This document shows, piece after piece, positions 5,394 to 63,998 of a stretch of DNA of 64,000 bases. Both the position numbers and the translations under genes were made by a program. The notes beneath the pieces are model-generated. The model was not told where the DNA came from, ran no database searches, and saw only the letters and a program-made list of their open reading frames with translations. The first letter of the stretch is position 1; each line of letters opens with the position of its first letter. The DNA is from Haliclystus octoradiatus (lineage: Eukaryota; Cnidaria; Staurozoa; Stauromedusae; Haliclystidae), in contig OU744449.1 in NCBI GenBank assembly GCA_916610825.1, positions 26,271,732 through 26,335,731 of the forward strand, written 5' to 3'.

Positions 5394-5403
5394 GTCAAAG
5401 CGT

Positions 5404-12400: not shown

Positions 12401-15400
12401 AGAAAGAGCGACGCTATCATTCATAAATCTGAAACAATAGGGAAATCTAAAATCCACATAAAAATTCTATAAAAACTTCTCTGTTTCTTGTCTAGAGTCA
12501 ATTTTTGTTGTAGAGTTCACCTATAATGAATTTACAAACCAGTTTACAGTCAGAAACCGCTCAATGTATATGTTTGGTGATTTCGTCATGCTTTCGTGGA
12601 TTAGCAGAATCATTGAAAACAATAGAATCAAAGACGCTCAGGATCATGAAGCTCACATGCTGCTGCATATATCAAAGTGTTAAGAAGGCTATGACAATGA
12701 ATCATGGAATATAAATTGATTATTGAAAGGTTTACAAGAAAACTAGACTAAAACAAGAAACGGTAAAAAATGAGCATATTTCTTTAAAACACTCCTATGT
12801 AATTTGCCTAGAGAAACCTGTCCTTTAGATCTGCTTGTGTCGCACTGTCTGCAACTTTGGAATACCCGACGTGCAATATGTTTGGAGCACAAATAGATGA
12901 ATTTAGAGAAAATACTGCTGCTGTATGAACTTCAATGAACTTGTATCAATAAACACATCAAACAACATATGCTGAAAACATTTGATGTAAAATATCAAAC
13001 ATTGAAATCAGATAATAAATTATGCAGATAGAAATTGACAATGATACTCACTATCTTTACTGTCCATTGTCACATAATTAAGATCTTGAATTCGCATAAT
13101 GAAAATCCTGCAAACATATTAGATTTGTGATGATCTCAAAATCACAACAAATTTACAATCTTGTCATCGATACACATATTAAGTGTACACCATAAGCTGT
13201 CAACTGTGAATTACTTATTTATCATTTATGACCTGTGCTGACTTTTTATCAGCATAATCAATGCGCAACATAAGTAAACTACAGTAGAAACTCTCTATAG
13301 CGGCACTCCCAAGGAACTTCAAAAAGGTATGTTATAGGCGATGTGCCATTAAAGCCAATAATTTATAAGAATATAGATACTAAATTTCACAAAATTTCAA
13401 CATCAGTTAAATTCAGTATGTTCCCTAGTGAAAAACAGTTCAGGAGTTCATGAACATTTCCTAAAAATTGGATGCCATTTAACGTTCATGTTCTGTTCAT
13501 GAACTCCTCAATTGTTTTTCGCAGGGGTAATAGGAACTTTCTATACCGGTTAGTAATCTTTAAGAGTTGACTTTAATTTTGGATATTTGAAAAAACAAAC
13601 ACCAGTGAACAATTAACATCAATTTCACATTTTTCAAAATAACTTGTATACTATAAGTTATGGATAAACTGACTACTATAGACAGGCGTTCTTTATATCA
13701 GGTTTGGCTGTTTTGCTACCGAAAAACAGTTTAGTAGTTCATGAACTGTTCATGAACTGTTCATGACCTCCTAAACTGTTTTTGCAGAGGCTTGATTCAT
13801 AATTTTCAACATAGCATTCCTGTAATTCTATATCTCTCACCTGTTTAGATATGAATTTAGAAATGAGTTATCGAGATCTATTTGCGTTGTTTGCTTTGTG
13901 ACATTACCTGAGAGTAAAATAAATAACATATACGTGAAATGATGGCATAATTTACTGTGGATTCTGTTTTATAAAGTCTACGAATTACCCTAATAAATAA
14001 TAAATTCAAAAACTTAACGTTCATAATCAAAAACAGGCACATTTGATTCTTATATAACCATAGATAAGGTTAATTTTCCAGCAGGGGGAGAAAAACACTT
14101 TTCAGTGCCTGAGACCACATAATTTTGCCTTAAAAATGTCTGCAAATACTTCACTGAAAATTTTCCTGGTTAAGCAATTCAAACTGATCTAATTTACACA
14201 CAAAGAATTAGTTTCATTCTTATCCAACTCTTATTCAGTTTCATTAATAAACTACATGGATAGATTCAGAATACTTTTAAACCTTAAAAAACGTGACTAG
14301 AGGAGTTCCATTCTTGTGCCTGCGACCACTAGTTCTAGTGGTCCCAAGATTTTCTACCCCTGCTTTTCAGATGGAAGAGTTCGTTGGCTACCGATTTTGC
14401 AGTATTTAAACATGGTCAATTAAATCAAGAATGATAAATTTGATCTCAAGAAGGAAATGCTTAGTAAGTCGTTGACAAATTCTTATAACTAATCCTAGTT
14501 TTATTGTAATACAGTTAAACCTGTTATAATGGTCACCTATATACAGTGGTCACTCTTGCAATGTCTAAAATAGTATTTTTCTATTGAATCAAACCTGTAT
14601 ATAAAGGCCACCTGTCTATAGAGGTCAATTTATCTACCTGTTGTAGCTGGCTGTTATATACAGGTTTCACTGTAATTAAAAAATGAACTGTTATGTTTCT
14701 TTATTGTATATCAGTCATATGAAAACAAAACAAGTAGCTTATTAGGTTTCTGAATAACCCTTGAAAAAAGCAGTTCAGGAGTTCATGAACGTTGAATGGT
14801 CTGAAATTTTTATGAACAATTTATGAACAGTTCATGAAAATTGAGGCCGCCATTTAACGTTCACGAACTGTTCATGAACTACTGAACTGTTTTTCGCAGG
14901 GGAAATGATGATGACGATGATGATGATGATAATGCAGTTATGAAATGATAATGCACTTATGAATCATAGCTTTCTGCTAATTGATTTAAATAAATAATAC
15001 TAGCTAACGTACATGTGAATTCTCGGAGAGACGGATTTAATATTAATATTCCTTAACCTATTTCCACTTGGCAATTTGACGTTAGTGCAGTGGTCAAGGT
15101 GTAGGAGCTCAGCCAGCAGGGTTTCGGATCCAATCCCTGACCGAGATGCACAATTGGTTAGCAGCAGGTGCCTTTAAACCGATACACACTCAAAAAAATA
15201 CTCACCAACAAAACAACTACGACCCTGGTCAAAAAAAGTTACAAACTTTGTTTTGTTAAAAAGATTAATAATTAAAATTATTACTTACATAAGAAAAGCG
15301 ATAAGCCAGCAAAACTATATCCAGTTATATAAGCATCGTAGGCTGCTTCATGAAGACGATCTTGTCCGTTATTATATACCGTAAAGCCTTGAGCAAGGGC

Positions 15401-18400
15401 TAAGAGAAAATAAAAACATTTATCATTGTATTCATCTGAGTAACTGATTAAAATATTATCTAGTAAACAATCAAGTCCAGGTCTAAGTGCGCGTACAATA
15501 AACGAAAACTTCAAGTCAAAATTAAATAAACCTTTTCAAAATCAAAAGAAGTAGTTTTAAATAAAAGAATATTATAGATTAACTATTGCTCGATTAAAAG
15601 ATATGACAATAAAAAAACTAAAATAACTAATTTATAAATTCAATGCTAACGTTTTTGATTACTTAAGAAACATGTTTTATTAATTACAAAGTAGTTTGTA
15701 TTTCAATGGCAAATGCTGTGAATGCATTCATTTTTCAAGAATAATCTATAGATAACTGGACATTTTTATTTTAATCGACTTACCAACCAATCCTCGTTGA
15801 AATGGCTCATCTTCGATTCGTGTTTTAACATCTGCTAAATTTGTCGCCAGTACATATTCCTGCAATAACGATATCAAAACAATAGAAGAATGTGGCCGAG
15901 CAATGGGGGATGATATAACTATGTGTACTATATTATTATTTCTTATGGAAACATGAGTAATAAAAAATAAAAATAATATAATGTTTAAATTTAAATAAAT
16001 TCAAGTAATTTCAACAAGTAAATTTGGATTTTTCTAAAAATCTTGCATTATTTTTGAGCAGAGCGCAGTCAAACCTGTTACAACGGTTACAATTTTACAA
16101 TGGCCACATGTCTATGGTGGTCACTCTTGGAATATTCAAATGATTCAACCGCGTATATAGATATACCAGTATCCACAAAAAGGTTTTACCTTCTAAAATC
16201 TTCCTAAAAAGTTTTTCTTGAAATTTTCTTATGAATTCTGCCACAAAACGTAACCAAAGATTCATTGCATCAAATCGAAAAGTCAGAACAAATATTAAAA
16301 TATCGAGTTATGAATCATGATAACATTCCAATTGGATTGTAGTGTTTCGATTGCATTTCATGGCTACCGCAGATTGCATTGGATGAAAATTAAAATAAAT
16401 TGAATTACTGTTACCTTGATGGGTGGCATTGACGCTAGTAATTTTGTATCCATAATTCTACAAATAGAGATAAAAAATATTTCGATTGAATTGTTTATCA
16501 GCTTTAATCAGAAAGATGTTTTGTAAAAATGTGTTACAATAGAAACATCTCAATATTATTAAAATGACTTTTAAAAACAACATTAATGCTCTCCAATAAT
16601 CAGATAACATGCGAATAATGTGAATATATGACAGTGAAAACAAATCGTAATTCTAACCTTGGAAACACTGTCTGCACAACTTGCTTGAATTCTGAAAAAC
16701 TCTATACAATACAAATCAACAACAAATAAAAAAAATCAAATGATATATGCAGAATAATTCTTTACAAATTTTCTTTCATAGCAAAGGCCAATCTGTCGAC
16801 CTTACATATTTCAAGCTTAAATGGGATGCATAGATAATTTATACCAGCACTTTGTATCGCAGCTTTTATTTGTAACGACGTATGTGTAATGTCATCGACA
16901 AGCAACTTATAAATATAGTAAAACCTGTCATAGCGGTCACTTCTATACAGCAGCGACCTGTCTATAGTGGTCACTCTTGCAATGTCTAAAATTGTATTTT
17001 CTATTGAATAAAACCTGTATATAAAGGCCACCTGTTTATAATGGTCAATTTATCTACCTCTCGTAGCTGGCTGTTATATACAGGTTTCACTGTATTTGGA
17101 AAAATAAATAATGATAACAAATGAATAAATCAAACAAAGATTAGTCAAGTTTTACTGTTATACATAGCTCTACTTAACTGTATCAAACACTCTCTTAAAC
17201 GGTTTGCATATTATTCTTATTCTTATTATAATTAATATAGTACAAACATTCTAATAAATGAATATCATCAAAATGTCAATAGCAGTAATTGAACCAACCC
17301 TGCGAAAATAGTTCAGGAGTTTATGAACAGTTCATGAACAGTTCATGAACGTTAAATGGCCCCAAATATTCATGAACTGTTCATGAACTGTTCATGAACT
17401 CCTCAACTGTTTTCGTAGGGGCAGAGATCTTGCCATAAGAATGTGAGACAATGGTGTTGATAACTACTTCAGCAACTTGCGATTCAAGCAGCTAGCAGAG
17501 ATTTGAAAATCATACAGATTACGCCCAGGAATGAGTACCACTATACTCAAGGTCCGACAAAATTTTTAGCCTTCTGGAATCCTAGAGGCATTTCAAAATT
17601 TTCGCCAAATTTTTTTGTTGGTTTTTGACCAATTATAATCATCAAAAATACCAGTTTTCTTCGGAATTTGCTTTAACCTTTAGGAATCTAGGATTCTAGG
17701 ATTCCTACTTTTGTCGGACCCTGACTATACTACAAAGAACTATCCTCAGGCAGAGTTCATCTATTAACAATTCCTTACCTGTGGCAAAGGCGTTATGAAT
17801 TGATTAATTGTTAAAAGAACATCAAGTAACATGTTATGACCCACAATAATCTTTTTCTGAAAAATGAATTCAAAAAATATAATGTGCTACAATTTAAAAT
17901 GGATGTACAGTAGAGAAAACAACTTTCGTATTTGCGGCACTTTTGCAACGTAGCAGTCGACGCTGGGAATTGAAAATAGTTTGTTTCGAAACCTGAAATT
18001 CTATAACTTCCACTTCCAATTTATGCATCGTTTAGGGAACGAATTTAGCTGATTTTTGGATAGTAACTGCTACTAATATCAACCCCTGCGAAAAACAATT
18101 CAGGAGTTCATGAACAGCTCATGAACAGTTCATGAACGTTAATGGCCCCAATTTTCCTGAACTGTTCATGAACTGTTCATGAACAGTTCATGAACCCTCA
18201 CAGACAGTTCACGAACAGTTCATGAAAATTTGTGGCCATTTAACGTTCATGAACTTTTCATTAACTGTTCATGAACTCCTGGACTGTTTTCGCAGGGGAA
18301 GTGCTGCCGTTTGAGGCTCTTCCTCCCACAATGGGTTTTCTCTCTATTGTAAATATTATTATTAGATATAGATCTAGATTAGATAATATTATTATTGCGT

Positions 18401-20960
18401 GTGTTTTTCATTAAACGCTTCAATTGTGTCTGATTCTGCTGATTGAGTACAGTAGATGCATGAAACTTGAATGAACAGTTTATTGTAACAGCTTTTTTCT
18501 ACTACAACTGCTGAGTTATTACAATGATTATTATCACAGTTCCAAAAAGCAATCACCTTTTGAAAGTAACTTTGATAATTGATTATTAACAAGGAATGAA
18601 AAAATATATATATAATAGGCGTAATTAATGAAATGTCAGATAAATTTGGATATAATCTACTACCGAACACAGGTTTGGGACGGGTCCACAATTGAAAATA
18701 AAGTTGATGGTTTTGAATATTTATGAAGTTTTGAGGAGAAACAACACCTTCAAGTCAATAGACACTCTGAATCCCAAAATTATAGATCAGTTTGAGTAAC
18801 GCATTACAGTAAAACCTGTTATAACGAACACCTCTATACAGCGACCACCTGTCTATAGTGGCCACTCTTGCAATGTCTAAAATAGTATTTTCTATTGAAT
18901 AAAACCTATATATAAAGGCCACCTGTGTATTGTGGTCAATTTATCTACCTCTCTTAGCTGGCCGTAATATATACAGGTTTCACTGTACATTATTATGTAG
19001 TAGTCGAACAAACGATATTATTGAATATCAGAATCGAGAAAAAAACTTACTGATTTTGACAATATATCAATAATCTTGCTAAAACCAACAGCCATCTCAA
19101 ACTGGTCCTGAAGCACAAATGAATAACAAATTGAAATACGAACAGAATAATTAAACTTTATTTAGTCAGCAGCGAAAAACAGTTCAGGAGTTCAAGAACA
19201 ACTCATGATAAATAGTTTATGAATCTTAAATTGTCCAAACTTTTCATGAACAATTCATGAAAATTGGGGTCATTTAACGTTCATGAACAGTTCATGAACT
19301 CCTGAACTGTTTTTCACAGGGGCTTTGGTAATGCCCTGGTCAAATAATTTTATTTCTCCCACATAATGTTGTTGAAATAGAAAGTCTTTGCCCCATCCCC
19401 ACAAGATGTTAGCAAAATAAGGACAAAACTAGACACAAGAATTGAAGGGTGATTTGTAGTGTGCACTGAAAAATAAAAATAGCTCCATGCATGTGAAATT
19501 GCACACTTTCAACACTACGGATCAATAGAATTGTGAAAAACTTATGAATAAATTAATAGGATTCTATCAAAAGTGCATAGTCAATCTCTAATAATCTCCA
19601 CAAAAATGTTAATCTCTGCTTTGTAATTCAATTTAATGCTCATATATATGATGCTATGAAATTATATTTTATTCAAAAAAAGTGAAAACAGATTTTTAAC
19701 AAAAATTAAAACCAACACTTTATGAAAAGTGTGCTGTTCCATGTTAATGAATTTTCAAACAGTTTTCATGAGCTGTCCAAGTACACTTTTCATGACATCA
19801 AGTTGTGAAGTTGCTGATAAACAGCTCATAAAATTCAACAACATGCAATTTTGAATTTCACGAGCAGTTAATGAAGTGTGTGAACTGTCAAAAAGTTCAT
19901 TTTCATAGAATCATAGGAAGTTTAGGATCTTTCGATCAAAATTCTCAATTAAATTCATTATATATCTGATGCTCTAGCTTATTACTCCAGATGCAAACAA
20001 AACCCAGAGTTCATCAACTGTTCACAATACTCATGAACTGTTTATGAACATCCTATATAGCGTTCAAGGTTCGATGATCTTCTTCCGGGATTCAAATTTT
20101 TACTCCACAAATTTTTGGATGTTAAATCGTGTAAACGCTGTAGCAGCTTATGATGGTGATAATTGTTATAAGAACATATTAAACACTACAACTTTTTACT
20201 CAACTTCCTAACTTTCACTCAAAAAACAAAAGCAAACGATTTTCCCTGTTAGAGTTCCAGAATCCTCCATTTTATCAAACCTTGAAAACAGTCCATGAAT
20301 AATTTATGAACATCCCATAAACTGTTGATGAACTGTGACTTAGTTCTGTTTTTCATGAACAGTTTATGAGCTGTTTGGGGAAATTAACACTTGCGAGTTT
20401 ACCCAGTGATTAGGGTTCATAAAAAGTCAACTTACTAGATCTTCAGCATTTTTGGCCTTCTGCATGGCTTTTTTTTCTTCGGCTGTTACACATGACAATT
20501 TCATAACTTTGACATTCTAAAAGAAAATTTGAAAACATAAACAATAAACCCATAAAACCAATCTGTATTCTATATTCCGAGGTTGGGGTTTGATAGCACG
20601 TTAGGTCCATACATGTTATTTGTATCTGTCTGTAATTGTGTCCATGTCATCGAAATAAACAAGCATTTGTGCTTACGGCGTGACAGCTAACGAGGGATGC
20701 GGATAATTTATTTTAATTTCACAATGATCACCTTTTGAAACTTGGTTAATAGCATCAACAAGGATGTCCCATTATTGATTCTCAAAGAAATTAATTATAA
20801 TTAAACTTATTTGACTGAAGAGGCTTGTTCTATTGGTAGATATCAACAAATCAAATAAAAATGATAACAAAAAAACATGATGAATTTATAGCAAAAAGTA
20901 TAACAATGACATATTTACAGGCAGTTAGACATTACACTACTGAAAATAAATCAGTATTAT

Positions 20961-20993
<33 letters not shown>

Positions 20994-23900
20994 TTTTATA
21001 GCGCCTATATCATTTTCTCTAAGCGCTTTACAATATCTAAGTGTAAAAAAAAAAAAATAAAAATTTACAATTAACATCATATTAGTTTCGAACTTTAGTA
21101 AAATTAAAAAGTAAAAGTAAACGATAATGATTAATACACATTTATGTGCCTAAAATATAGTGTCAATAAAATAAAGTTGAGTTATTAACTGCCAAAAGCT
21201 ACACAAAACAAATGTGTTTTCAATTTACTTTTGAACACATCTAGTGATGCACTACATCTAACTACTTCCGGTAACTTGTTCCACAAAAATTTCTGTACAT
21301 TTTCACCAGCGTTATCTTTTTCAGTACTTTTTCAGTATATTTTTCAGTATATTTTCAATACTTTACAAACTTATAATAGTGTTAAGTATCTATTTTAATA
21401 ATATCATACCTTTTCGTTCCTACACGTTTCTGCTTGGATGCAATCAGGAAATCTGAAAGTTTTAGAAGACTTTCAATCAAATTTCATAATTAAATTGGAA
21501 ATTGTGACGATTGGCACAAAATTAACTTCCGCAGACTGTACCAGAAATACAGCAAAACTTCCCCAGATATATCTGCATATATACGCAAGCAGAATTTGAT
21601 GCTGTTCAGAAAATGAGTACCAACGTAAAAACAGTTCATGGCAATGAAAATTGGGCCATTGAACCTTTATATGAACTGTTCATTAACTGTTTACAACATG
21701 CTCATGTACAGTTAATGAAATTCTGTAAAGTTCATGAACTGTTGATGAGCAACTCAGAATGTTCATGAAAATTTCATAAACTAAACAAGTTTTTTGCAGG
21801 GGTAATACCTAGGATGAATAAAATTTTGGTCCAGAAAGGCTTCGATTCTTTTATTTCGCTTTCTGTCTCAAATAACATAAGAAAATATGTTTTATGGCTT
21901 TCCTTTTCAATATCTAATTTAATCGGTGTTTTATTTCAACTTAGCAAGGTATCACAAACGTATTAGCCCTCCAAGAAGCGGGAAACATTTGGTTTACAAA
22001 ACAGTGAAACATTTGGAAAAATTGTAACCAAATTTGCTAAAATTTGACTTGTAGTTTTGAAGCTTGAGTCAAGACCAAAAGGCAAACTTGACATACAATC
22101 GATAATTACGAAAAATGTCTGTGCACCGATGAGGAATCAAACCAGTGCAAACAAATATGATCTATTAGCTAAGTAGTGGATCATTATCATTTAATATTTG
22201 CAATACCTTCTTTCCACAGCTTCGTAAATCAACCTCCGGTTAAAACTAGTTGAAAAAAGAAATAATGATGAAAATCGTAGATTGTTGTTGCTTGGTTAAG
22301 AGTTAAACAAATATTTTGTTAACTAAATAAAATGAATCGAATTATCAAATGTGAAGCAATACTTTCTCCATCTATATTAGTAGTCAATGTTAATATTGAT
22401 GATATTACATGTGGATATTATAATAACTTACGATGAACTCGGAGATAATATAAGGAATTTTTCATCCGGACTCTTCAAAAGGTTGTTGGCTTTATCGCTA
22501 AAAATGTAAAACAAAAAACACAATTGTATCAATAATACGCATTGAAAGTTGTTGCATGAAATATTTAAATCCAAATGCTGCTGTAATTATTAGTTTTTAC
22601 GACTAAATTATTTTCTTTCTTATTAAGTCTAAAGCTACAGATTGGCTAATTCAAATAATCAGGTCATTCGCTCCAGACCATAAACTGATTTTGAAACTCA
22701 ATAAACTTTGAGAATGATCCAACTAATAGGAAAATGAAATCTCGTTTTTATGTTAGTAAATTTACTCAAACGTACATCTAAAAAGTTGAAGTTTGCACAA
22801 CGTAAAACACTTTGTCGGCCCCTGCTCCTAGCATCGTAGATCTCCACCAAAAACAAGGAATAACTTACCAAACATCTTCCACATATTTCTTTTGTGACGC
22901 AGGTATAGGTGTAGTTGGTATTGGTTTCTTCTGTACCTTTTGTGGCGTAGTTGGCTCCGAAGGAGTTCCATTGCTTGTATATTTAAAACGGGTACTACGA
23001 TGATGATCTTCATCAGATGGGTACATATACGATAAACCTTGATAAAGAAAACTTCAAGATAATTATGATGAGACGATTGTTGTGTATTGCATAACGCATC
23101 TGCGTTTATAGTGTGATGACCAGATGTCTAGACATCTCGAGGATAAGGGTATGACTCCCCTGAAGAGGGTTTTTCAAAAATGAGCCCGATTATTCTGATA
23201 AGGGGCCATCCATAAAGTACGTACTCAGTAAACATTCCAATATTCAACACCCCATTCTACTGCACAAAGCTGTACGTTTAAAGATACCCCCTTCTATGTA
23301 TTTACTAACAATTTTGCAACCCCTGCATTATTACAAAATTTAACTTTCTTGTTTCTAAAAGTATACAAGTGCAACTATTTCTGTAAAAATGCAAATCTTT
23401 ACGCTTAAAAGTGGATTTTCAGTTTAATTTTTCTGCAATAAAATCAATTTAATCAGCATAAAACTGATAATAATGTTTAGAAGCCCTAATACAATAAACT
23501 GAAACCTTGTGTTCTGTTTTCGAAGTAAATACTGAAAATTGTCCAGGATTTATTTTGATATACGCAGACATTTCGTAGCAAGATGACAATTTTATTCAAA
23601 AGGCAAAAGCGAAACAAACACAAACCAAAACAGATTAAACAATGAGATCAAAACTTGCTCTCCTCCTTGGAATAAAGTTTTGCGCTAAAAGGTTTTACGA
23701 AACGAGGAGGTCAGTACAGGTTTCAGAGCAAAGGGGTCAAGTTGTGAAGTTGATTCAAATGGTTCCGACTCCATTTCTTATCTTTGTAAATCAACTCTTA
23801 ATAGGAAATATAAAAAACCTGGATGCTTACCTCCTTTAACCCATTTATTGAAATCAAACCCTTGCTTCCCTAGAAACTCCAAAGCTGAGTTCTGAAAAAG

Positions 23901-42187: not shown

Positions 42188-42191
<4 letters not shown>

Positions 42192-51962: not shown

Positions 51963-52070
51963 AAAGTAAATTAAAATTTAATAAATTGTCATATAAGTAA
52001 AGTCAATTAATAAGATATAAGAATTTAAATAAAACCTTCACGGTTAAACCAAGTTATTAAAACGGTTCCG

Positions 52071-55000
52071 TTAATGAGTAGTAGGATCTGATGGATCAAA
52101 ACGAGTTGGAGCTTTCACGATTCGTCCACTGCGTGTTCTTTGAGATGCATCTGAGACGGTTTGCTCACTTGTTCTTAACGGTGTAATCACTTGAGCACGT
52201 GCCCGTATTAAATTTCGACCTGATTCAGTGCACACCTCAACGCGGCGAGAAGTGGCTGATTGTACATGTCCACGAATAGGACTATTTATGTCATTAATAT
52301 TTCTAATCGCAACTCGCTCACCAACGTTTGGCTGAACAAGTGGAGCAATTTTTTTTGTTGAATCATGCGCTAATTTCATGACGGCTTTAGCGGTGCGCTG
52401 ATGACGTTCATTGATAATTTTATTTTCGATCATAGCTGGAATTGGAGTTATGGGTTTACGACCCATTAACGCATGTAATGGAGAAGTTCCTATTGTGCGA
52501 TGATAAGTAGTACGTAGTATATATAGCGCGCGTCTTAAACGATGTTTGTCATTTAAATGGTCCAAACGATGCCAACGACGCTTGAAAGTGCGATGGAATC
52601 GTTCTATCATACCGTTTGATTTTGCATAACGCGGTGCAGAATGTCGAATTCTAACACCCCATGATTTACAGAATGATTTGAAATCATCGGAAGTGAATTG
52701 TGGACCATTGTCACTCATGATTTCAAAAGTTGGGCCATGCATTGAAAAAATAGCCTCAAGCGCATCTATAATCTCAGAGGCCTTCTCTTTTCGCAAAGGA
52801 TATACTTCTGGAAAGCGGGATCCATAGTCCACCACAGACAAAAATGGTTTTCGATCAACGTGGAATATATCTGTGGCAATTGTGTGCCATGGAGGTAGAA
52901 TTGCTGATGGCTGAAGTTCAAGATCAGGAATTCTTTCTTGAAATTCTTTGCAGCTGTCACAATGATCTAAGGCAGACTTCACATCGCTTGACAATCCCGG
53001 CCACCAAACAGAACTTAGTTGGGCAAGTGTAGATTTAACACCGAGATGACTATCATGTGCTAGTTTCACAAGATTTTCACGTAATGATGATGGAATAACA
53101 ATTTGATTTCCTCTTAGAAGTATTCTCGGCTCATTTAATACAGTTAAATTGTGTCGTTCTTTAAAATAGCAATCAAGTGACTCAGGTAAACCTGACCAGT
53201 CATTTGTTTCAATGGAGTTAATGACACGAGACAATGCATTACTATGGGTGGTTTCTTTCGAAACGTCATCTAATGTTACAAATTGATGTTGTTGTATAAT
53301 GTTTTCATCGTCATCTTCATCATCATAAGTATTTATAGCTGCTATTTCATTAATTTCTTGTGTTGATAATAATAATGTACCTGCAGATTCCAAAGTGACA
53401 AACGCTACTTGGTTGTACTCTGCTTCTGTTAACTCAGGTGTACTGTCGTGTGCTGGTGACCGCGATAGAGTATCCGGTAATCGGTTCATCGGTTCTTTTG
53501 CCGGTTTATAAAGGATCTCGGATCCAAATGGTGCAAGACGTAGCATCATCCGCTGAAGTCGCGGTGGTATAGCATCTAACGGTTTAGTCCATATTGCTTC
53601 TAAAGGCTTATGATCAGTCCAAAATTCGCAAGTGCCGCCGATAATAAACTGTCGGAATCGATTTGCTCCGAACACTATTGCTAAAAATTCTCTTTCCATC
53701 TGTGAATATTTCTGCTCTGTAGTCGTGAGCGAGCGACTGGCCGTTAACACAGGTTTCCACTCATTATCGTGCAGCTGTAATAATACTGCACCTAAACCAT
53801 AAGGGCTTGCATCGGACAGAATTGCAGTTTCTGCATCTGGCGCATAAAACGACAAAGTTTTAGTTGCAGCACGACGTAAACATTCTTTGACAACAGTCCA
53901 AGCGTTATGAACAGCATCAACATTAAATTCGCCTTTCAAAATATCTCTAATTGCTTTGACGTGCGTAGATAAATCAGGCAGAAATTTCTGCATGTAATTA
54001 AGCATACCTAGAAGGCGCCGAGCCTCGGTTATGTTATTAGGTGGTGACATGTCTAACGCTTCAGTAATTTTAGATGTATCTGGGGATATTCCACTAGCAG
54101 ATATAGTATGCCCTAAATACATTAATTTATCCTGTGCTATTTTACATTTTGATTTATTTAGTTTAGCACCAATGGTTTTCAAACGAGCCATTACAATAGC
54201 TAATCGTTCGTCATGTTCTTTCCGGTCATTACCATACACTAATATGTCATCTATGTAGACACGACAGCCGGATAGATCCGATAAGTGATCTGACATTGTG
54301 CGTTGGAAAATCTCGGGTGCCGAACTGACACCGAACGGAAGTCGTAAATAACGATAATTACCGCGATGAGTGGCTATTGTAGTCAACTCAGATGACGCTT
54401 CGTCTAATTTTATTTGATTAAACCCTGATTCTAAATCGAGGGTAGAGAATATTGTTGCGCCATGTAAATTTGCGAAAAACGATTCCGCTGTAGGAATAAC
54501 AAATCGTTCACGACTAATGCACTCATTCAATTTTCTAAAATCGCCGCAAATTCGTGGCTTTCCGTTCTTTCTCCATGCAACTACGATAGGTGATAGCCAT
54601 TTAGTAGGGCCCGTCACTCGTTCAATAATTTTCATTTCTATCATTCTGTCTAGTTCCTCAGAAACAGGATTATGAAGCCTAAACGCTAATTTTCTGGCTC
54701 CTTGAATAACTGGACGACTATTATGTTTAATTGCGATTGTTGCAGCACCAATAGTTCCTAACGGCTCAACGGCATTTATTTCTACAGCAAACTCTGTAGG
54801 CAGCGATAAAGGCTGACCTCCGAGCTCTAAATAATCGTGATACGCTAACAACGGGCATTTTAAATTATCTATTGTCTTAGCCGCAACAGAAATAGATTTA
54901 TGCTGTGGTGTTGCAGACAATTTTATTGTACCTTGAGCTGTAACACGAATTGGTTTACTGTTCCAAGGCCTGACATGGGCATCTTTGAGGGAAATAAAAT

Positions 55001-55970
55001 CCTTGGAATCTTTTAAATATTCGTTAGGCACCATTGTACATGTCGAGCCAGGGTCAATAAGAAATTGTATTGGCTTACCTCTAGACCACAGCGTTACATA
55101 CGCCCTTTTGCCTGGCTTTGTAGAATCTACTGCAAATGAGCTGTCATCAGTGTCAGAACTGTCAGTGTGCAACGCAGCTGCTTGTGGCCTACGTTTGTTG
55201 TCCGATTTTCTGCCTTTTCTTTTGTCAATCCTTTTAGATTCTTTTTCAAATGATCTTTTATCTTTGCTACTCTTTGATCTGCATACAATTGCAAAATGAT
55301 TTTTACGATCACAATTCGTGCAGGTTTTTCCGTAAGCAGGGCATTGTCCGTATATATGCTGTCTACCGCAGTATTTACAATTGTCAGATGTCGTTGCGGC
55401 AGCCAAATCTGTCACAATAACTGGTTTTACAGTCTCGAATGTAGATATTAGTTTAGTACATTCTGCAATTGTCAGAGTATCTACATTCTGCTGCATGATA
55501 AGTCTTTTTGCGTCTGCAGAGTTTAGTCCTCGTATTAGTAAATCTCGTAATAATAACTCTCCCGTAAGCGTCGCATCCGTGTATCCAGTCTCCTCGTACA
55601 CAGAACGTAATGACTGTAGAAATTCGTGAATGGGTTGATCAGTCCCTTGTTTTAAATCTAATAACTTGCATCTATAACTGAGATGTCTCCTTTGTGGTTT
55701 TAACACAGTTTCCAATCCAGACAAAATGTTGTCTACTGTTTCGGGCGTGTCAGCCGTAAACGTGATATTTGTTTGTGCAAATTTTCTAAAATCTTCACCA
55801 GCCACGTTATATAAAATCGCGACTTGCTTTGCTGGAGTTTTCAGATCTAAATCAGTTGCAGCCATGTAAATATTGAACATAGACTTCCAATTTATGAATT
55901 TGTCATACGCATTGTGTTGTTTGGGGTTGAAAAATTCCGGTAGCTTTCCACGGAATTGTGCCATAATCAT
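52071..55970 (-). CDS. Gag-Pol polyprotein of a Ty3/gypsy retrotransposon, 1,299 aa
   Basis: One frame encodes, in order: a Gag-like region (about 1-195); two zinc knuckles at C198-C210 (CX2CX3HX4C, one residue shorter than usual) and C217-C230 (CX2CX4HX4C); a Lys/Arg-rich linker; an aspartic protease with LIDPGSTC at about 304-311; reverse transcriptase with YIDD at 572-575; RNase H (LSDASPYGLGAVLLQ, later TDHKPLEAI); and integrase with an HHCC zinc finger (HDSHLG, then CDSC) and the D, D, E catalytic set (ATDIFHVD, MSDNGPQFTS, GMIERFHRTFK). The tail has an RTRSGRIVKAPTRFDP-like motif common in such elements and no clear chromodomain. The protease has Pro where Ser or Thr is usual (D-S/T-G). 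There is no frameshift between gag and pol, so all products would come from one precursor. Confidence 0.95.
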   Translation of the reverse strand: MIMAQFRGKLPEFFNPKQHNAYDKFINWKSMFNIYMAATDLDLKTPAKQVAILYNVAGEDFRKFAQTNITFTADTPETVDNILSGLETVLKPQRRHLSYRCKLLDLKQGTDQPIHEFLQSLRSVYEETGYTDATLTGELLLRDLLIRGLNSADAKRLIMQQNVDTLTIAECTKLISTFETVKPVIVTDLAAATTSDNCKYCGRQHIYGQCPAYGKTCTNCDRKNHFAIVCRSKSSKDKRSFEKESKRIDKRKGRKSDNKRRPQAAALHTDSSDTDDSSFAVDSTKPGKRAYVTLWSRGKPIQFLIDPGSTCTMVPNEYLKDSKDFISLKDAHVRPWNSKPIRVTAQGTIKLSATPQHKSISVAAKTIDNLKCPLLAYHDYLELGGQPLSLPTEFAVEINAVEPLGTIGAATIAIKHNSRPVIQGARKLAFRLHNPVSEELDRMIEMKIIERVTGPTKWLSPIVVAWRKNGKPRICGDFRKLNECISRERFVIPTAESFFANLHGATIFSTLDLESGFNQIKLDEASSELTTIATHRGNYRYLRLPFGVSSAPEIFQRTMSDHLSDLSGCRVYIDDILVYGNDRKEHDERLAIVMARLKTIGAKLNKSKCKIAQDKLMYLGHTISASGISPDTSKITEALDMSPPNNITEARRLLGMLNYMQKFLPDLSTHVKAIRDILKGEFNVDAVHNAWTVVKECLRRAATKTLSFYAPDAETAILSDASPYGLGAVLLQLHDNEWKPVLTASRSLTTTEQKYSQMEREFLAIVFGANRFRQFIIGGTCEFWTDHKPLEAIWTKPLDAIPPRLQRMMLRLAPFGSEILYKPAKEPMNRLPDTLSRSPAHDSTPELTEAEYNQVAFVTLESAGTLLLSTQEINEIAAINTYDDEDDDENIIQQHQFVTLDDVSKETTHSNALSRVINSIETNDWSGLPESLDCYFKERHNLTVLNEPRILLRGNQIVIPSSLRENLVKLAHDSHLGVKSTLAQLSSVWWPGLSSDVKSALDHCDSCKEFQERIPDLELQPSAILPPWHTIATDIFHVDRKPFLSVVDYGSRFPEVYPLRKEKASEIIDALEAIFSMHGPTFEIMSDNGPQFTSDDFKSFCKSWGVRIRHSAPRYAKSNGMIERFHRTFKRRWHRLDHLNDKHRLRRALYILRTTYHRTIGTSPLHALMGRKPITPIPAMIENKIINERHQRTAKAVMKLAHDSTKKIAPLVQPNVGERVAIRNINDINSPIRGHVQSATSRRVEVCTESGRNLIRARAQVITPLRTSEQTVSDASQRTRSGRIVKAPTRFDPSDPTTH

Positions 55971-56000
55971 ACACAGTATAATAATACTTAAAAATATATC

Positions 56001-56016
56001 CTATCAGCTGCGCCAA
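56001..56016 (-). other. Candidate tRNA primer-binding site
   Basis: Immediately inside the 5' LTR the minus strand reads TTGGCGCAGCTGATAG. TGG at position 2 would pair with the CCA end of a tRNA primer; the tRNA species is not identified. Confidence 0.55.
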
Positions 56017-56221
56017 TGTTGAGCTTCGAGTCTCAATCCAAATACTGTGTATGATAGATCATAGATAAAGACACAGATAATACAAATGTTTCATAATAAC
56101 TTTAAGATGTATATTCATATATAATCGCGTGTTCTTCGCACCGCATACTTCACATTCTAATTCTAGCATCAATGTCCTACATATTTAATTAAGAGGCTGA
56201 GAATCGAAATGAGGCACAACA
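56017..56221 (-). repeat. 5' LTR of the Ty3/gypsy element
   Basis: Second 205-bp LTR, no difference from 51743-51947 seen. It should carry the promoter of the element. Confidence 0.95.
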
Positions 56222-57180
56222 CCCCTGAAGTCAAATTTGATCAGTTGCCGCCCCTGCCCCTCATTTTTTTGGCGCTGCCGCCTCCGCAATCTCGTCAAGA
56301 TTGCCATCATTTGCAGACTGGGAGACTGGCATGTAATTATGCAGAAAATTTGTAAGATTTGAATAACTTTTAACGAAAATGGTATCAAATTTTACAAAGT
56401 CGGCTAGTCGGTGAGTTGGCTTTTCTCCCTCACCCGTCCAACAGAGACAGAGTAGAGTCAGTTTCAGATCAGCTAATTTATCCAGGCCTTCCAAGTCTCA
56501 CTGCTTTGCCGTGTGTCTCACGCTTTCACACTGAATCTCACGGTCTCACGGCAAAATCCAATCTTGTGAAAATGTCTTTAAATTCTTTGTAGGCCTATAA
56601 ACTCTTTGAGAATCTAATTAATGTTCAACAGGTTAATTTATACTCTGTTGGATCATTCTGTGTGTTGTTTCTAGACTAATTTCATGTTTTGTCTACATTC
56701 CATACACTACACTACAATTTCAAGGGTCAACATTCCATAGTGGAATCCATATATGTTACGCCGGATATATCCGGTGTAGAATTGAGTTGGTTTTACGCCA
56801 ATTAGGTTTCTTTGGTGTGGATATTTAATAATTTTCTATAGTTTTCAACTAAATTTGGGATTTTTGGCCGTATTCTAGAATACTGACTTGGCCTGGCGTA
56901 ATTTTGGAGTAAATATCCGGCTTTCCAAATTCAAGGATTCTACTATGGTCAACATTATCCCAAAAGTTGTCGTAATTTTTCGTTTAAAGCCATTTTGTAT
57001 CCATGACAAAGTACATCCCCTAGACCCCCTAGAATTGGGCAATTCTTTCAGGGAAGCCTCTATATTTTATCCTCAGCTTACAGAATTTCAGAAATCTCAC
57101 TATTTTTTTCAAATCTGAAGTTGGATTGGATGGAAGGTCTGATTTATCATTAATCATTATCAATGTATTTCAAATAACAG
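56222..57180. other. No gene recognised
   Basis: Contains GCCGCCCCTG-type sequence similar to that left of the retrotransposon (around 51640), and a GCCGGATATATCCGG palindrome near 56760. The open frames 56261-56494 (-) and 56888-57118 (+) match nothing known. Confidence 0.4.
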
Positions 57181-57318
57181 GATTATACTGATGCTTACCG
57201 TGGATATGAAGAAGATAGACATCTTGATATTAGTCGCCAGTTTGAGCCCATCATAGATCTTATTTTGCATCCAATGTCACTTTCTCCCAGTTCCACTTCA
57301 CTTTACCTCCACTTCTGA
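57181..57318 (+). CDS. Possible terminal exon of an unidentified gene
   Basis: After an AATAACAG acceptor, 45 codons run to TGA with a protein-like composition (DYTDAYRGYEEDRHLDISRQ at its start). AATAAA occurs near 57448. No upstream exon was found and the family is unknown. It might instead be 5' UTR of DCXR or chance. Confidence 0.25.
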   Translation, partial: DYTDAYRGYEEDRHLDISRQFEPIIDLILHPMSLSPSSTSLYLHF

Positions 57319-57566
57319 CTTTCCAACGAAATTTCTTGTTTCTCCGCCGCCCTTTATCAGATACCTCTTGTTCACGCAGAGGAAATACGAGGCACAGCAA
57401 CATTTCCACTAACTGTAGCTTGGTGAGCCTTATGTCAAAGCGCTTGTAAATAAAAAAAACTTTGTTTTTCGTATGTTTTTGGTGGTTGTATTAATTTTCT
57501 CTTGGTATTATTTCTTCCACTTCACAGGAATTAAGGTTACATTGCATTGCCTAGTGTGATTGAAAT

Positions 57567-58645
57567 ATGGAAATATCCTTTATTGGAAAGAAAGCACTCG
57601 TTACTGGTGCAGGAAAGGGTAAATTCATATACAACAAACGGCATTGCAACATTAAATATTGTAATAAATCTAATTACTTACACCCTGTGGCTGTAAGCCT
57701 AGTCTGACTGAAGGCTGTATTTATGTACAGATATAGTGTTACAGTATTTTACTATTTTACTGCGTAGGAAGTCCTTCGTCTATCTCCTTAATCTTATAGT
57801 CAATATCAGTGGGTAGGGCTAATGCTACCAAACGAATAAGCGATCACTTTTGAAATTTGCACCTTCACGGATAGGTAGCCTAGGTAGGATGCAAATGTTC
57901 GAGAATCCTGAATTTGGCAGAAATTTTTTTTGCTTTTTTGCTCTAGGAAAATACCTAGGCACTCTAATAGACAATACCCTATCTTTCGACAAACATGTCA
58001 TAGCAATTAATAAGAAAATCAATAGAAGCTTGGGCGTTTCGAAATACGTGAGACGCTTCATACCGCAAGAAGCAGCTAGAACTATTTATAACACCATTGT
58101 TTTGCCACACTTTGACTACTGCGCTGTCGTATGGGGGAACTGTAAAACCGAACATCTAGATCGCCTCCAGAGATTGCAAAACAGAGGAATGAGGACAGTG
58201 CTCCGTTGTAACTATCGCACTCGTGTCTCTGATATGCAAAGTCAACTAGATTACAGAATAACACCGCATCAACTAATGTTCACTCATAAAATTAAATTCA
58301 AACTAGCTCCTCCTTTGCTTTCCGACTTTTTCCAACTGCCGTATTCCACCAGAACAAGATCTCACGCCCACAATGACATTTACATCAAGTCGAGCCATCG
58401 TCATTCATTTCAAGACGCTGGTGCGCATAAGTGGAACGATCTACCGTCTGCAATGAAGGAAGTCCAAAGCAGGCCTACTTTCAAACGTCTCCTTGAGAAG
58501 CACTTACGTTCTTAGTATACTTTACACTTACCACTCTTTCCTGTTATTTATGCCTGTTTTTTTACTTAATGTCTGTTTTCCTGTCAACTTAGCTATGAAT
58601 CAGTCCTTTGAAAAAAAGTTTGTATAACTTAAAGGTTCTGAATAA

Positions 58646-58685
<40 letters not shown>

Positions 58686-61600
58686 GGTTGCTTAACATTT
58701 TTTATTCTTTCTGTAGAAAGGGAAAAATTCCGCCCAACTTCTAGACATTATATACTCTGTCAATGGAAGCCAATCTAGGGGGCTCTGCTAGGGCGGTACC
58801 CACAAAATATTCGTCTGTGCAAGCAAGGCTTTGAAGGATTTTTGCTTTGTGGGCTGAGAAACCGATTTTTAAATTGACGAGAGATAAATATATTGACCTC
58901 TATAGACAGGTGGCCTTTATATACAGGTTCGATTCAATGGAAAATACTATTTTAGACATTGCAAAAATGGCCACTGTAGACAGGTTGCCGCTGTATAGAG
59001 GTGACCGTTATAACAGGTTTGACTGTAGTTAGTTTAAATATCTAGGTAGGCTCTATTGTATTGGTAAGACAACTGTAATGCTGTAGCCTCATCGTAACGT
59101 ATGATTGGAGTTGAGGGCCGTTGTGGAACGAGGCTAACCTGAAACGATATGATAAATATGACAAAAGCTCTTATTATATCTTTGTTAACTCTAGGTTTAG
59201 GACGTGATATTTCTAAACTGTTAGTCAAATGTGGAGCAACTGTTTATGCGCTTACAAGAACTCAATCTGATCTTGACTCTCTAGTAAAAGAGGTGAGAAA
59301 AATAGTGTAGCCTACGTCAATATTTTTTGTTATTATTAAAATAGGTTTTTGTTTCTGTAACAGGTATAATGTTTATAGTAATAAAAGCCACCTGTAAAAC
59401 ACAGAAAATGCAGCAGATTACAGATCCTAAAATAATAAAAATCGAACATTTGTGAACCTGCATATAATAAACAAACAAACAAGCCTAGTTTAGGAGTTCA
59501 TGAACAGTTCATGAACTATGAAAAAAAACAGAATTCTCAAAGGACAAGTCTTACTTCCCACTGCTTCAAGATCAGCATAATAGGCCCACAGAAGTGAGAA
59601 TTGAACAAGTCAATATAGGCCTACAGTTTTGATTAATTAGAAAAGTTCTTTTTGCAGGCTTATAGATTACTGACTTGACCATTTTTCTAACCAAACTATT
59701 CAAAGTCTGTTATATCTACCGTTCACAGGAGCCTTTAATTATTCCAATTTGTGGTGATATCTCAGATGTTTCATCAATGCAACATCTCTTTAAAGACATC
59801 AACGACATTGAACTGTTGGTTAATAGTGCTGGTGTTGCAATTCTTGAAAGTTTTCTCAATGTATCTCAAGATTCATATAATAAGTAAGTACACATGAGAT
59901 ATGCCTTTAAGCAAATTGTTCAGCTAATGATTTATTTTAAAGTTATTTTATGGTTTATCTCAAACAACTACATGACACATACATATATAGAAAAATTAAT
60001 TATGGAATATCAATACAGACTATAACTTATAGGGTCAAAACCATGTGGAAAACAATTCAGGAGTTCATGAACAGTTCATGGATGTTAATTTGCCCCAAAT
60101 TTTCATGAACTGTTCATTTAGATCAGGAGTTTAGGAACAGTTCATGAGCAGTTCATGAAAATTGGTGCCATTTAACGTTCATGAACTGTTCATGAACTCC
60201 TGAACTGTTTTTCGCAGGGGAACCCATTTCGAATTCATAAGCATGTGTTTGTATGTGGTCCAGTTTTCCACTGTTTTCTCCGTCACTTTTCAAGCAAGAT
60301 ATTTGAGTTCTTTAGGTGTATCATTAGATTTGTTGCTTTCTGTTGTGATTTTTATTTAACATTTTCCTTCTTACCTATTTACCATTTACCTATTTCACAA
60401 TGTTCTAACTGCCCCTGCAAAAAACAGTTCTTGAGTTCATGAACAGTTCATGAACGTTAAATGGCTCCAATTTTCCTGAACTGTTCATGAACTGTTCATG
60501 AACTCCTGAACTGTTTTCACAGGGCTTTAGCCTATCTATTTTACAGCTTTCACTTTCAACATTAAATCTCATTTCAAGAACCAGACATGATAATTCAAAT
60601 TTCAAAAGTTGTCTGAAATCACGGATATCTAGATATTTGTAATTGACTTCAATATGAAAAGGCAATATCTAGAGTTCACAAGTGTGAAAATAGTCTGAAA
60701 TCCTAACTTATTTTATTTTCAATTTTTCTAACCAGGATAATGGATATTAACGTCAAAGGTCTACTTTTCATATCTCAGGTAAGTCTTGATCAATACTTTT
60801 TCAAACAGTACACAAGAAGAGGTCATTGATATTTGTAACGTTTGTTTAAACTTATGAAGTAAATGAGCTATTTTTGAGCAAGTAAAGCTGTTCTGCAATA
60901 ATTGAGCGCTATCATGGTGCCTAGAATTTTACAGGTCTGAAAATTAGTTTGCAATAAAACACAAAAATGTATGTTCCTGTCCTCAAATGATTTATTGCCC
61001 AATTATTTAGAGATTTACAAGAGATTGAACAGGGGGATTGTTTTTCTAGCTGTTTTCACACTACTGTTGTGTATGTTCGCGTGAAATTGCCCAATTGTTT
61101 TCGTGGAAGTAGGCCTACATGTTTTTCATTTTTTCACGTTTATGAACCAGTTTATGAACTGTTTTTGAATGTTAATCAAGGTTTGTCAAATGGTTCAGTC
61201 ATCTGTAATCCTAGAGGCATTTCAAAATTTTTTCTCAATGTTTTTGTTCAAGTTTCCTGTGTGAAAATTTCATGAACTGTTCATGAACTGTCCATGAACG
61301 TTGAATGGTGCCGTTTTCATGAACTATCGTGTAAAAATGTAATCAAAATGCCTGGAATTAGTTCATGAACTGTTATTATAGAACTCAGTTCATGAAAATT
61401 TGGCCATTGACTCATTAAGATATCAATTTTCTTCTGAATTTGTACTAACCTTCGAAGATCTAGAATTCCTGAATTCCTACTTTAGTCGCACCCTGATGTT
61501 CATAAACCCGCAGACAGAAATGTTGATAAGCTGTTCATTAAAAATTTCACAGAGGAAGTTTCTACTTATGTTAAAATATTTCCCTTTTTTTTTTGTCCAA

Positions 61601-63998
61601 AGATAATTGCCAAGAAAATGATAGCCAATGGCAAGGGAGGATCGATTGTTCATCTTTCTAGTCAAGCATCTCAAGTTGGATTGAAGGATCACACAGTGTA
61701 CTGTAAGTGTGCTTGAATTTGTTATTTTCCATTCTCCTGTTCATGCACATTTCCGTTGCGGATTTGTGAGAAGTTCAGAAATAATCAGAAGCAGTTCATA
61801 GAAATTTGATAAACCAGTTCATGACATGAAATTGCCCAAATTTTCTTGAATTGTTTAGTTACAATTTTTGATCTGAATGTTATGTAACTGTTTGTTAAAC
61901 GTATATTTGACAGTTAACGGATATTGCATGGAATGCTCAAAAGTTCATGAACTATTCAGAGGTCCATTTGGTGTTTGAATGGGTTTGTAGAGTTGCATGG
62001 TGGTTATGCTTGTTGAATATTTAATGAAAAAAAGTAAATAATTCCGCTTTTTGTTTTGTGTGTAAATATATAAATGTAGTGATGTCACCGAACATCACGT
62101 CCAAACTCTCTTTACTAATATTGTTGTAAATAATACTTTTATCAAAAAATGGGACACAATATATTCGGAATACGATGTTCAAGGCAAATTTTGATTGTGA
62201 AAGAGTCCATTGCGATGTGTTAAACCGCAACAATGACTTGCACGGCATTTTGTAAATTAGGCATTCAATTATACTGCAGCATTGTTTTAGAACAGAAAAC
62301 GGGTGGTTAATTTTCATTTGTTTGTAATTTAATTTAGGTGCCTCAAAGGGAGCAGTAGATCAGTTGACGAGGATTATGGCACTGGAGCTTGGACCTTACA
62401 AGGTATTGCAATGGTGTCATTGAAAGAAAAATTTGTGTTGGTTTGTGTGTATTATGTTTTGACATCATAGCTATTGCTTCCTTGCCCGGATAGATAATCT
62501 TGCAAAATCGAGATCATAGAATGAACAGAACAATTCATGTCATGGAAATGCGTCTAATTTTCCTTTTGCATTTAATTTCCTTGGAAATACATCTAATGGT
62601 GCCTTTTGCTTGACTTTATTATTATTTAACGCTCTGCTATTTACAAGCATTGAGCACTGTTCAACTGCCAATTTAATTTTTTTATTAATTTGATACATAT
62701 TATAATTTCCCTGTTATGTATTTTGAACTGCACGGATTTATCCCCTGCGAAAAACAGTTTGAAAATTCATTAACAGTTCATTAACAGCTCATTAACAGTC
62801 TGTGAATGTTAAATGGCCCCAATTTCCATGAAAAGTCCATGAACTCTGCTTAAAGTTCATGAAAAATTCATGAAAGTTGGGAGTCTTTAGCTTTCACGAA
62901 CTTTTGATGAACTGTGCACGAACTCCTGAACTGTTCGCAGGGATGTTTTTTTATGGTTTATAATTTTATATATTTTACTTATAGCTTATCATTGCCCTGG
63001 ATGATAATGAAGAAAATATTTCCAATTTGAAATTAGTTGTTTGTGCAGTCCACTGCTCTTTGTTAATTGTTGCCGATAGCTTTGCTGTACATGTACAGTA
63101 TATGTTTTGAAATATATTGTCTAGTTCTATTATGTAGACTGAGTTTTTTTAATCCTTTTCACATGCACATATCTATGTTTGTTATTCTATAGATCCGTGT
63201 GAATGCTGTTAACCCTACTGTTGTCCTAACTGATATGGGACGTCTGGCATGGGAAGACCCAGCTAAAGGTGGACCTATGTTAGATAAAATACCTCTAGGC
63301 AGATTTGCAGGTATGAATATGATGGCGTACACACAGCATGCACATTGCAGCTTAGGCATCTAGTAGGCCAGTAACTGATAGAGATTTTTAAATCAAGAAC
63401 TCATGAGTACAGTAGTATAAATCTCATGGAGACTATGTAAGGGCCTAGGTGCGGTTACACAATTTATATCGACACAGTCAGATGCAAGTTTTTGTGAAGC
63501 TTCAAACAATTCCAAAAACAATTTTCTGGCTTCAAAATATTCAGACAACTGAAAAAAAAAAACAGAAATTGAATCTTTGTTCATTATTCAGAAATTTAAC
63601 AAAGAAAAATCTACAAAATAAATTAACATAATCCACCAGCTCCGGCCCATGCTCCATACTGGCAAAGAATTCACTCCAATGTTGCTCCTGTTGGAATATG
63701 GATACTTCCGCTGCGAAAAAAAGTTCAGCAGTTCATGAACAGTTCATGAACGTTAAATGGCCCCAATTTTCATGAGCTCCTGAACTTTATTTTGCAGGGG
63801 TTCTGTTAGCTCTCAGACGCCTCCTCATATTAGGCAATCTCTAAAACCCTATATATAACCTGCTTGATATCTTGAAGGTCTATTTTTATTGCAGAAATGG
63901 AAGACGTCAGCCACGCTGTTGTGTATTTACTCAGTAATAAAAGCAAAATGATCAATGGAGTTACTTTACCAGTTGACGGTGGGTTCTTAGCAACATGA
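57567..63998 (+). CDS. DCXR: L-xylulose reductase / dicarbonyl reductase (SDR family), 8 exons, 244 aa
   Basis: DCXR is a short-chain dehydrogenase that reduces L-xylulose to xylitol and alpha-dicarbonyls with NADPH. Exons: 57567-57618, 59195-59292, 59729-59883, 60736-60778, 61603-61702, 62338-62402, 63193-63310, 63895-63998. Phases agree and the total is 735 nt, giving exactly 244 aa as in human DCXR. The cofactor loop is TGAGKGLG (13-20) and the NADPH-specifying basic residue is in [12 protein letters not shown]. The catalytic tetrad sits at the human positions: N107, S136, Y149, K153. [27 protein letters not shown] and the closing PVDGGFLAT are family signatures. NSAG replaces the usual NNA/SAG. 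Intron 1 carries a LINE end and a mariner-type MITE; introns 3, 6 and 7 carry palindromic MITEs. The stop is only 2 bases from the window end, so the 3' UTR is not visible. Confidence 0.96.
57946..58684 (+). mobile_element. 5'-truncated LINE end in DCXR intron 1
   Basis: The frame 57946-58515 encodes about 190 residues from after the RT core of an L2/CR1-like polyprotein: [43 protein letters not shown] and [11 protein letters not shown] before the stop. After AATAAATGATGATG it ends in a (GAT)n tail at 58647-58684. The frame is open, so the insertion is fairly young, but it lacks the catalytic part. Confidence 0.8.
58880..59025 (+). mobile_element. Tc1/mariner-like MITE, 5' end lost, DCXR intron 1
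   Basis: TATATACAGGTTCGATTCAA to CAGGTTTGACTG, followed by TA. The first ~35 bp are missing. Lies 169 bp before exon 2. Confidence 0.65.
60043..60220. mobile_element. GTTCATGAAC palindromic MITE, DCXR intron 3 (first copy)
   Basis: 178 bp with both arms; left tip degraded to GTGGAAAACAATTCAGG, right tip TTTTTCGCAGGGG intact. Confidence 0.82.
60412..60524. mobile_element. GTTCATGAAC palindromic MITE, DCXR intron 3 (second copy)
   Basis: 113 bp, CCCCTGCAAAAAACAG to CTGTTTTCACAGGG, with cleanly preserved arms; probably one of the youngest copies. Confidence 0.85.
61190..61497. mobile_element. Worn hAT-like MITE with a GTTCATGAAC element inside
   Basis: The outer ends (CTGTAATCCTAGAGGC at 61202 and TTTAGTCGCACCCTG at 61481) belong to the CAGGGTCCGAC family. 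Between them, 61268-61410 consists of GTTCATGAAC units. Suggests insertion of one family into the other; DCXR intron 4. Confidence 0.5.
62742..62942. mobile_element. GTTCATGAAC palindromic MITE, DCXR intron 6
   Basis: 201 bp, CCCCTGCGAAAAACAG to CTGTTCGCAGGG, AT on both flanks. Many units read CATTAACAG instead of CATGAACAG. Confidence 0.8.
63708..63800. mobile_element. GTTCATGAAC palindromic MITE, DCXR intron 7
   Basis: 93 bp short form, CCGCTGCGAAAAAAAG to TTTTGCAGGGG, TT on both flanks. Ends 94 bp before the last exon. Confidence 0.85.

Follow-up and report, generated by a model that had tools for sequence, protein, structure and literature searches.

A High-Copy Palindromic Repeat, Very Probably a MITE Family, in Haliclystus octoradiatus

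Introduction

The window analyzed here, a stretch of 64,000 nucleotides from Haliclystus octoradiatus (assembly GCA_916610825.1, contig OU744449.1, positions 26,271,732 to 26,335,731), is interspersed with short palindromic repeats lying mostly between the exons of a few genes. This raises the question of what kind of element they are, by what means they spread, and whether they are drawn to introns. An original prediction, made from the letters of the window, had named them a MITE family concentrated in introns.

Copies in the Window

The profile used here was built from 28 full-length copies found in this genome, including the window copy L009; L032, which is without its left end, was kept out. 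Searching with nhmmer at E ≤ 0.001, this profile marked 35 intervals, copies as well as fragments, which amount to 4622 bp or 7.2% of the window. About 25 copies had originally been claimed, and the coordinates of these were right; the larger number of intervals arises because the profile takes in old fragments. Several window copies appear older. Copy-free parts were 1–13422, 25758–30348, 40699–48221 and 48293–59485, and the two stretches originally described as empty (1–9476 and 50565–57566) both fall inside them. The copies, all placed by nhmmer with the profile and listed without strand, are as follows.

13423–13527: palindromic MITE copy, PARN span
13720–13790: MITE copy, PARN span
14758–14902: MITE copy, PARN span
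17298–17421: MITE copy, PARN span
18083–18298: full-length 216-bp copy, PARN span, with AA/AA target duplication (also from flanks and fold)
19170–19322: MITE copy, PARN span
19760–19883: old fragment, PARN span
20007–20063: old fragment, PARN span
20285–20383: old copy, PARN span
21630–21802: old copy, PARN span
25611–25757: MITE copy, PARN span
30349–30449: old copy, 5' of first verified CFAP52 exon
30807–30889: old copy, 5' of first verified CFAP52 exon
31359–31466: MITE copy, CFAP52 intron
31661–31742: fragment, CFAP52 intron
31790–31895: fragment, CFAP52 intron
32723–32826: MITE copy, CFAP52 intron
33246–33324: fragment, CFAP52 intron
34028–34155: MITE copy, CFAP52 intron
34511–34725: 215-bp copy, CFAP52 intron
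35356–35716: adjoining or nested copies merged as one interval, CFAP52 intron
36014–36154: MITE copy, CFAP52 intron
36925–37070: MITE copy, CFAP52 intron
37237–37306: short copy, CFAP52 intron
38635–38773: MITE copy, CFAP52 intron
39902–40057: old copy, last verified CFAP52 intron
40529–40698: 170-bp copy downstream of last CFAP52 coding exon, outside CFAP52
48222–48292: half copy 5' of the MRPS7 exon (47.5–47.7 kb), intron or flank
59486–59517: fragment, 5' of first verified DCXR-like exon
60041–60220: MITE copy, DCXR-like intron
60412–60524: MITE copy, DCXR-like intron
61267–61410: MITE copy, DCXR-like intron
61790–61958: old copy, DCXR-like intron
62742–62942: MITE copy, DCXR-like intron
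63709–63817: MITE copy, DCXR-like intron

Element Structure

The window contains 131 matches to GTTCATGAAC with at most one mismatch, whereas shuffled sequence would give 3.5. The profile consensus is a near-perfect palindrome of 217 bp (self-palindromy 0.976, or 97.6%), which runs from CCCCTGCGAAAAACAGTTCAGGAG through AGTTCATGAAC units and GTTAAATGGC to a central unit set and is then repeated as its mirror image. The body consists of 11-bp AGTTCATGAAC palindromes, and is bounded by inverted terminal repeats, CCCCTGCGAAAA..TTTTCGCAGGGG, as in other MITEs. The window copy at 18083–18298 (216 bp), folded as single-stranded DNA, gave z = −17.4. Together with the self-palindromy of the consensus this fold bears out the earlier description of a palindrome made of palindromes, and the shared CCCCTGCG ends and the core GTTAAATGGC mirrored as GCCATTTAAC were both seen. 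Exact CCCCTGCG ends occurred nine times in the window, one of them (at 51528) not within any copy.

The small size of a MITE was found in 92 of 95 complete copies, which are non-coding and 66–250 bp long, and the palindromic body leaves no space for a transposase. Having 11-bp units on both arms and a short central domain, the element also shows foldback structure, a membership which is one of structural class only and is uninformative on the transposase. The unit AGTTCATGAACT resembles two head-to-head AGTTCA half-sites, a possible likeness to nuclear-receptor elements. Rfam at gathering thresholds gave no match in the whole window, ARAGORN found no tRNA in it, and literature searches for the unit or end sequences listed no paper with a related title.

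Target Duplication

The 95 complete copies came from the window and from fetched loci of the same genome, with repeats of the same flanks removed. An exact 2-bp direct repeat flanked 68 of these, while shuffled pairings averaged 11.8 and never exceeded 21. Repeats of 3 bp were present at three copies and of 4 bp at two (shuffled mean 0.6, maximum 3), and none was present at any length from 5 to 10 bp. The duplicated dinucleotides were of 11 kinds, with TA (14), AT (12), AA (12), CA (8), TT (7) and TG (4) followed by the rarer AG (3), CT (3), TC (2), GA (2) and AC (1). The remaining 27 copies had no exact 2-bp duplication, several of them having mutated ends. Median divergence from the consensus was 3.7% and the minimum 0, in a set mostly chosen for similarity or exact ends. 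The 68 targets showed a weak symmetric preference for a pyrimidine-purine step at a distance of about 5 bp from the duplicated dinucleotide on both sides, and G at the first base of the dinucleotide (C at the second) accounted for only 4%.

The variable 2-bp duplication is the signature of cut-and-paste insertion in which the target is cut with a 2-bp stagger and little preference for particular bases, and therefore of a non-autonomous cut-and-paste element. The MITE reading of the original prediction is thereby strengthened, and a high-copy, non-autonomous DNA transposon family of this kind is very probably the best explanation of the repeats. With its foldback-like structure the MITE family is ordinary in kind and, as a MITE family, one of many. 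A dispersed minisatellite or stem-loop that spread through slippage, with no transposon, would agree with the varying number of 11-bp units and with the existence of a 70-bp tandem expansion (below), but both ends of the element are fixed and most copies carry exact flanking duplications, and we consider such an origin hardly credible.

Unit-Number Change

The commonest copy lengths were 217 bp (nine copies), 206 bp (eight) and 228 bp (eight); neighboring unit centers were mostly 11 bp apart and lengths stepped by 11 bp. A copy of 545 bp (L050:989–1533) carries a 70-bp internal unit in approximately six tandem copies and is a possible satellite seed. Slippage and hairpin-mediated rearrangement had both been suggested as the source of unit-number variation. 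The 11-bp length steps and the 70-bp expansion are consistent with the former, and the change can fairly be read as slippage or unequal exchange. The two arms within a copy were 0.888 alike against 0.882 expected if mutating independently, and because this likeness matches independent mutation neither arm-to-arm hairpin correction nor hairpin-mediated rearrangement is supported. The near-total build of the element from one short palindrome makes unit-number change traceable base by base.

Genome-Wide Abundance and Chromosome Position

The assembly comprises 262 Mb in 33 contigs, nine of them large, and the window lies approximately 2.7 Mb from the end of the 29.0-Mb contig C5. Genome-wide there were 4876 exact unit dimers (18.6 per Mb), of which the window has 13 (203 per Mb), and 572 exact 33-base ends; the reversed control patterns of both were absent from the genome. 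Copies were found on all nine chromosome-sized contigs. C3 and C9, considered as copy-free contigs, are explained by their sizes of only 37 and 11 kb. In 20 random 1.5-kb stretches searched with the profile at the looser E of 0.01, five copies were detected in two stretches, covering 2.2% of bases, a rough share about three times below that of the window.

Exact 54-base ends lay in the outer fifths of chromosomes in 34 of 57 cases (22.8 expected), and in 31 of 52 when thinned to one per 200 kb (p = 0.003). The outer-fifth share of transposase places, for scored matches on large contigs, was 31% for PF02992 and 24% for PF13359. A noteworthy feature is that the MITE leans to chromosome ends, the reverse of what the genome's CACTA and PHIS transposase matches show. 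On C7 (3521831–3562421), five MITE copies of the same orientation and near-equal score were observed within 41 kb; a segmental duplication is likely there, because L034 and L035 share identical 24-bp flanks.

Placement Relative to Genes

PARN, CFAP52, MRPS7 and a DCXR-like L-xylulose reductase were confirmed in the window, with verified exon-to-exon spans of 11990 to 26870 (PARN), 30928 to 40299 (CFAP52) and 59666 to 63986 (DCXR-like). The PARN span rests on a CAF1 match in 26778–26906 and an RNA_bind match in 11990–12190, because a search of 26599–26784, taken by eye for a PARN exon, found nothing. Gene spans make up 47% (verified) to 59% (generous limits) of the window, less than the approximately 70% originally stated. 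All clear copies but one had originally been placed in introns. Within the verified spans of PARN, CFAP52 and the DCXR-like gene lie 30 of the 35, and within the generous limits 34; the copy at 40529 is indeed outside CFAP52, that at 48222 is in an intron or flank, and those at 30349, 30807 and 59486, just 5' of first verified exons, are probably intronic. None of the 35 overlaps any of 18 exon segments. When the 35 positions were rotated round the window, p was 0.029 (verified) or 0.026 (generous), and since rotation respects the clumping of copies the intron bias in the window is modest.

Beyond the window, four clusters on C1 were picked for density, and three of these lie in recognized genes (THADA, EFL1 and a Calx-beta gene); for EFL1 (the L070 cluster) the Pfam matches were below Pfam's cut-off and the identification is backed by a PDB search. 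In the fourth cluster, two minus-strand frames were scanned without a Pfam match. An exon detector based on codon usage was not strong enough to tell introns from other sequence, with window copies passing its threshold of 8 in only 7 of 35 cases, and exon-like segments in the flanks were scanned with Pfam instead. These scans covered 28 loci chosen only by similarity to one window copy, excluding L009 (the window copy) and L035 (which has the flanks of L034). The copy flanks (75.2 kb, 63 segments) had approximately five conserved cellular exons, the random stretches (29.3 kb, 21 segments) four, and the gene bodies of the window (35.9 kb, 24 segments) ten when members were taken singly. For the counts of five and four, overlapping WD40 families were merged, the alignments listing families and not members; retroelement families were dropped (Peptidase_A17 and RVT_1 from the copy set, RVT_1 from the random set), and some of the matches kept were weak (NDH2_C 0.006, CAP 0.0016, Ig_2 0.0014). 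Exon density in copy flanks gave p = 0.28 against random stretches and p = 0.0095 against gene bodies, in a test that is weak by its small numbers and weak detector and that long introns would escape. By the latter value, most of the sampled copies do not seem to lie in gene bodies with the exon density seen in the window.

The predicted concentration in introns therefore holds in the window and in the dense clusters, but similarity-chosen copies were no richer in exons than random stretches; it is local and unproven for the genome. Specific intron targeting, or an intron-making introner, is favored by the 30 to 34 of 35 copies in gene spans, by the three clusters in THADA, EFL1 and the Calx-beta gene, and by ends that read TTTTTCGCAG and are acceptor-site-like. 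The clusters, however, were selected for density, the 28 sampled copies speak against it, and window copies sit inside larger introns with no exon overlap. We regard either as unlikely.

Search for a Partner Transposase

The original prediction recognized no source transposase, and our searches of the genome with end patterns, PF02992 and PF13359 again found no autonomous element with the same ends. MITE ends without a following unit were present at 34 places (33 read, the 34th being L016), all of them MITE copies or truncated ends. The truncated end without MITE body at L087/L118, followed as an autonomous lead, proved false: it stands beside exons that are PSME4-like by eye, for which Pfam returned no family in any of the three frames on that strand. 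With a looser end pattern, 62 places were found against 2 for the reversed control; some of the 62 form small subfamilies, and none lay within 6 kb of a transposase match.

Compared by definition, the Tc1/mariner duplication of TA accounts for only 14 of 68 duplications, the ISL2EU duplication of AT for 12 of 68, with CCCC in place of GG ends, and the TTAA of piggyBac stands against 4-bp repeats at 2 of 95 copies. For hAT, P and Mutator, 7–10 bp would be duplicated, against 0/95 at each length from 5 to 10 bp. The variable 2-bp duplication misfits all of these, as well as PIF/Harbinger, as currently defined (for all but P, in PMC4482050, PMC10045372, PMC12730594 and PMC4079207). It agrees with CACTA/EnSpm (CMC), where 2 bp (2–5) are duplicated, but the CMC termini are CAC..GTG (CA..TG) and those of the MITE CCCC..GGGG. 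No superfamily compared has both these ends and this duplication.

CACTA elements carry subterminal repeats, which counts in favor of a CMC MITE moved by a CACTA transposase of the same genome, a reading we hold to be possible though doubtful. PF02992 (Transposase_21) gave 51 genome matches at E ≤ 1 (34 over the cut-off alone, 36 with neighbors) and none in 14 control genomes. The 2-bp duplication fits the accounts of CMC elements in passages of PMC6004678 and PMC12730594, which allow 2-bp duplications and give the termini as CAC or as mostly CA..TG, respectively. The elements CMC-NA_1 and CMC-NA_2, as described in PMC6004678, resemble the MITE in 2-bp duplication, terminal inverted repeats and lack of coding capacity, but begin CAC and end GTG. 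Against a CACTA source stand the CCC..GGG ends and the one CACTA family whose end was mapped. One PF02992 family had 17 genome-wide matches of the same short stretch; when its upstream end was followed with short probes from copies, two copies were alike as far as CACTACCAACC and differed beyond. The mapped family begins CACTACCAACCG, with starts at C1:16408278 and C2:13717962, and is an ordinary CACTA element that does not share the MITE ends. This family, with its CACTACCAACC start, carries ACCGTGAAA-like subterminal repeats. Weakly unfavorable, too, is that none of 244 MITE ends among the matches listed (33-mer ends from C1 only) lay within 6 kb of the 42 PF02992 places (those of the 51 on large contigs, adjacent pieces merged), where few were expected (random mean 0.43).

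With respect to the PHIS group (Harbinger, ISL2EU and relatives), at least 150 PF13359 matches were present (150 scored of 414 candidates), several with the same score, and one of 14 control genomes had matches. Duplications of 0–4 bp are possible in this group according to parts of PMC10045372 and PMC12730594, and ISL2EU resembles the MITE in its short duplication of 2 bp. The ISL2EU duplication is, however, specific for AT, with usually GG ends, and that of PIF/Harbinger is TWA (PMC4482050, in part), whereas the MITE has any of 11 dinucleotides and CCCC ends. Of the same 244 listed ends, none lay within 6 kb and three within 12 kb of the 148 PF13359 places on large contigs (of 150), with random means of 1.73 and 3.68, a comparison that is likewise weak. 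PHIS membership is very improbable.

Proposed Mechanism

A transposase supplied in trans by another element would cut at the CCCC ends and join these to a target whose strands are cut with a 2-bp stagger. Spaced by about one helical turn, the 11-bp AGTTCATGAAC palindromes may form arrays of sites bound by the transposase or by a helper protein, so that the element would consist of two such arrays joined head to head. Reading the units as helical-phase binding sites would have a precedent in Galileo, a member of the P superfamily (PMC4168063), whose terminal tandem repeats hold extra transposase binding sites (PMC4079207, citing Marzo et al. 2013). Tetris of Drosophila virilis has an 8–10 bp duplication and was suggested to be a Mutator element, the authors having found no autonomous copies according to the relevant part of PMC4079207. 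As there described, Tetris and Galileo resemble the MITE in being non-coding and mostly inverted repeats with tandem units of variable number, and in expansion to satellite-like arrays; the MITE differs in its 2-bp duplication, total length of about 217 bp, 11-bp palindromic unit and thousands of copies.

Slippage or unequal exchange would add or remove whole units. The dense intronic blocks are best read as copies that inserted and survived at sites where distal chromosome regions tolerate them, rather than as intron targeting. More speculatively, and with little likelihood in our judgment, the MITE might represent an undescribed lineage with CCCCTGCG ends and a variable 2-bp duplication, whose transposase would bind 11-bp palindromes in helical phase; the MITE would then be a pure binding-site array, seeded by the thousand into introns of the gene-rich chromosome fraction.

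Other Repeats in the Window

Between CFAP52 and MRPS7 lies a large inverted repeat (43913–46229) with arms of approximately 1.05 kb that are 97–98% complementary and 214 nt apart, which looks like another foldback-type element. A second dispersed repeat was observed at eight places (9959–10095, 14535–14629, 16067–16133, 16765–17049, 18805–18940, 26986–27122, 35159–35280 and 58892–59031), alike over up to about 140 bp with 76–91% identity to the copy in 16765–17049. A third, of approximately 200–250 bp and 81–93% identity, was observed at five (1–120, 5020–5242, 30591–30798, 33403–33602 and 39468–39716). On the minus strand, 52074–56000 holds an LTR-type retroelement with one open frame of 1309 aa and RNase H and integrase domains (Pfam).
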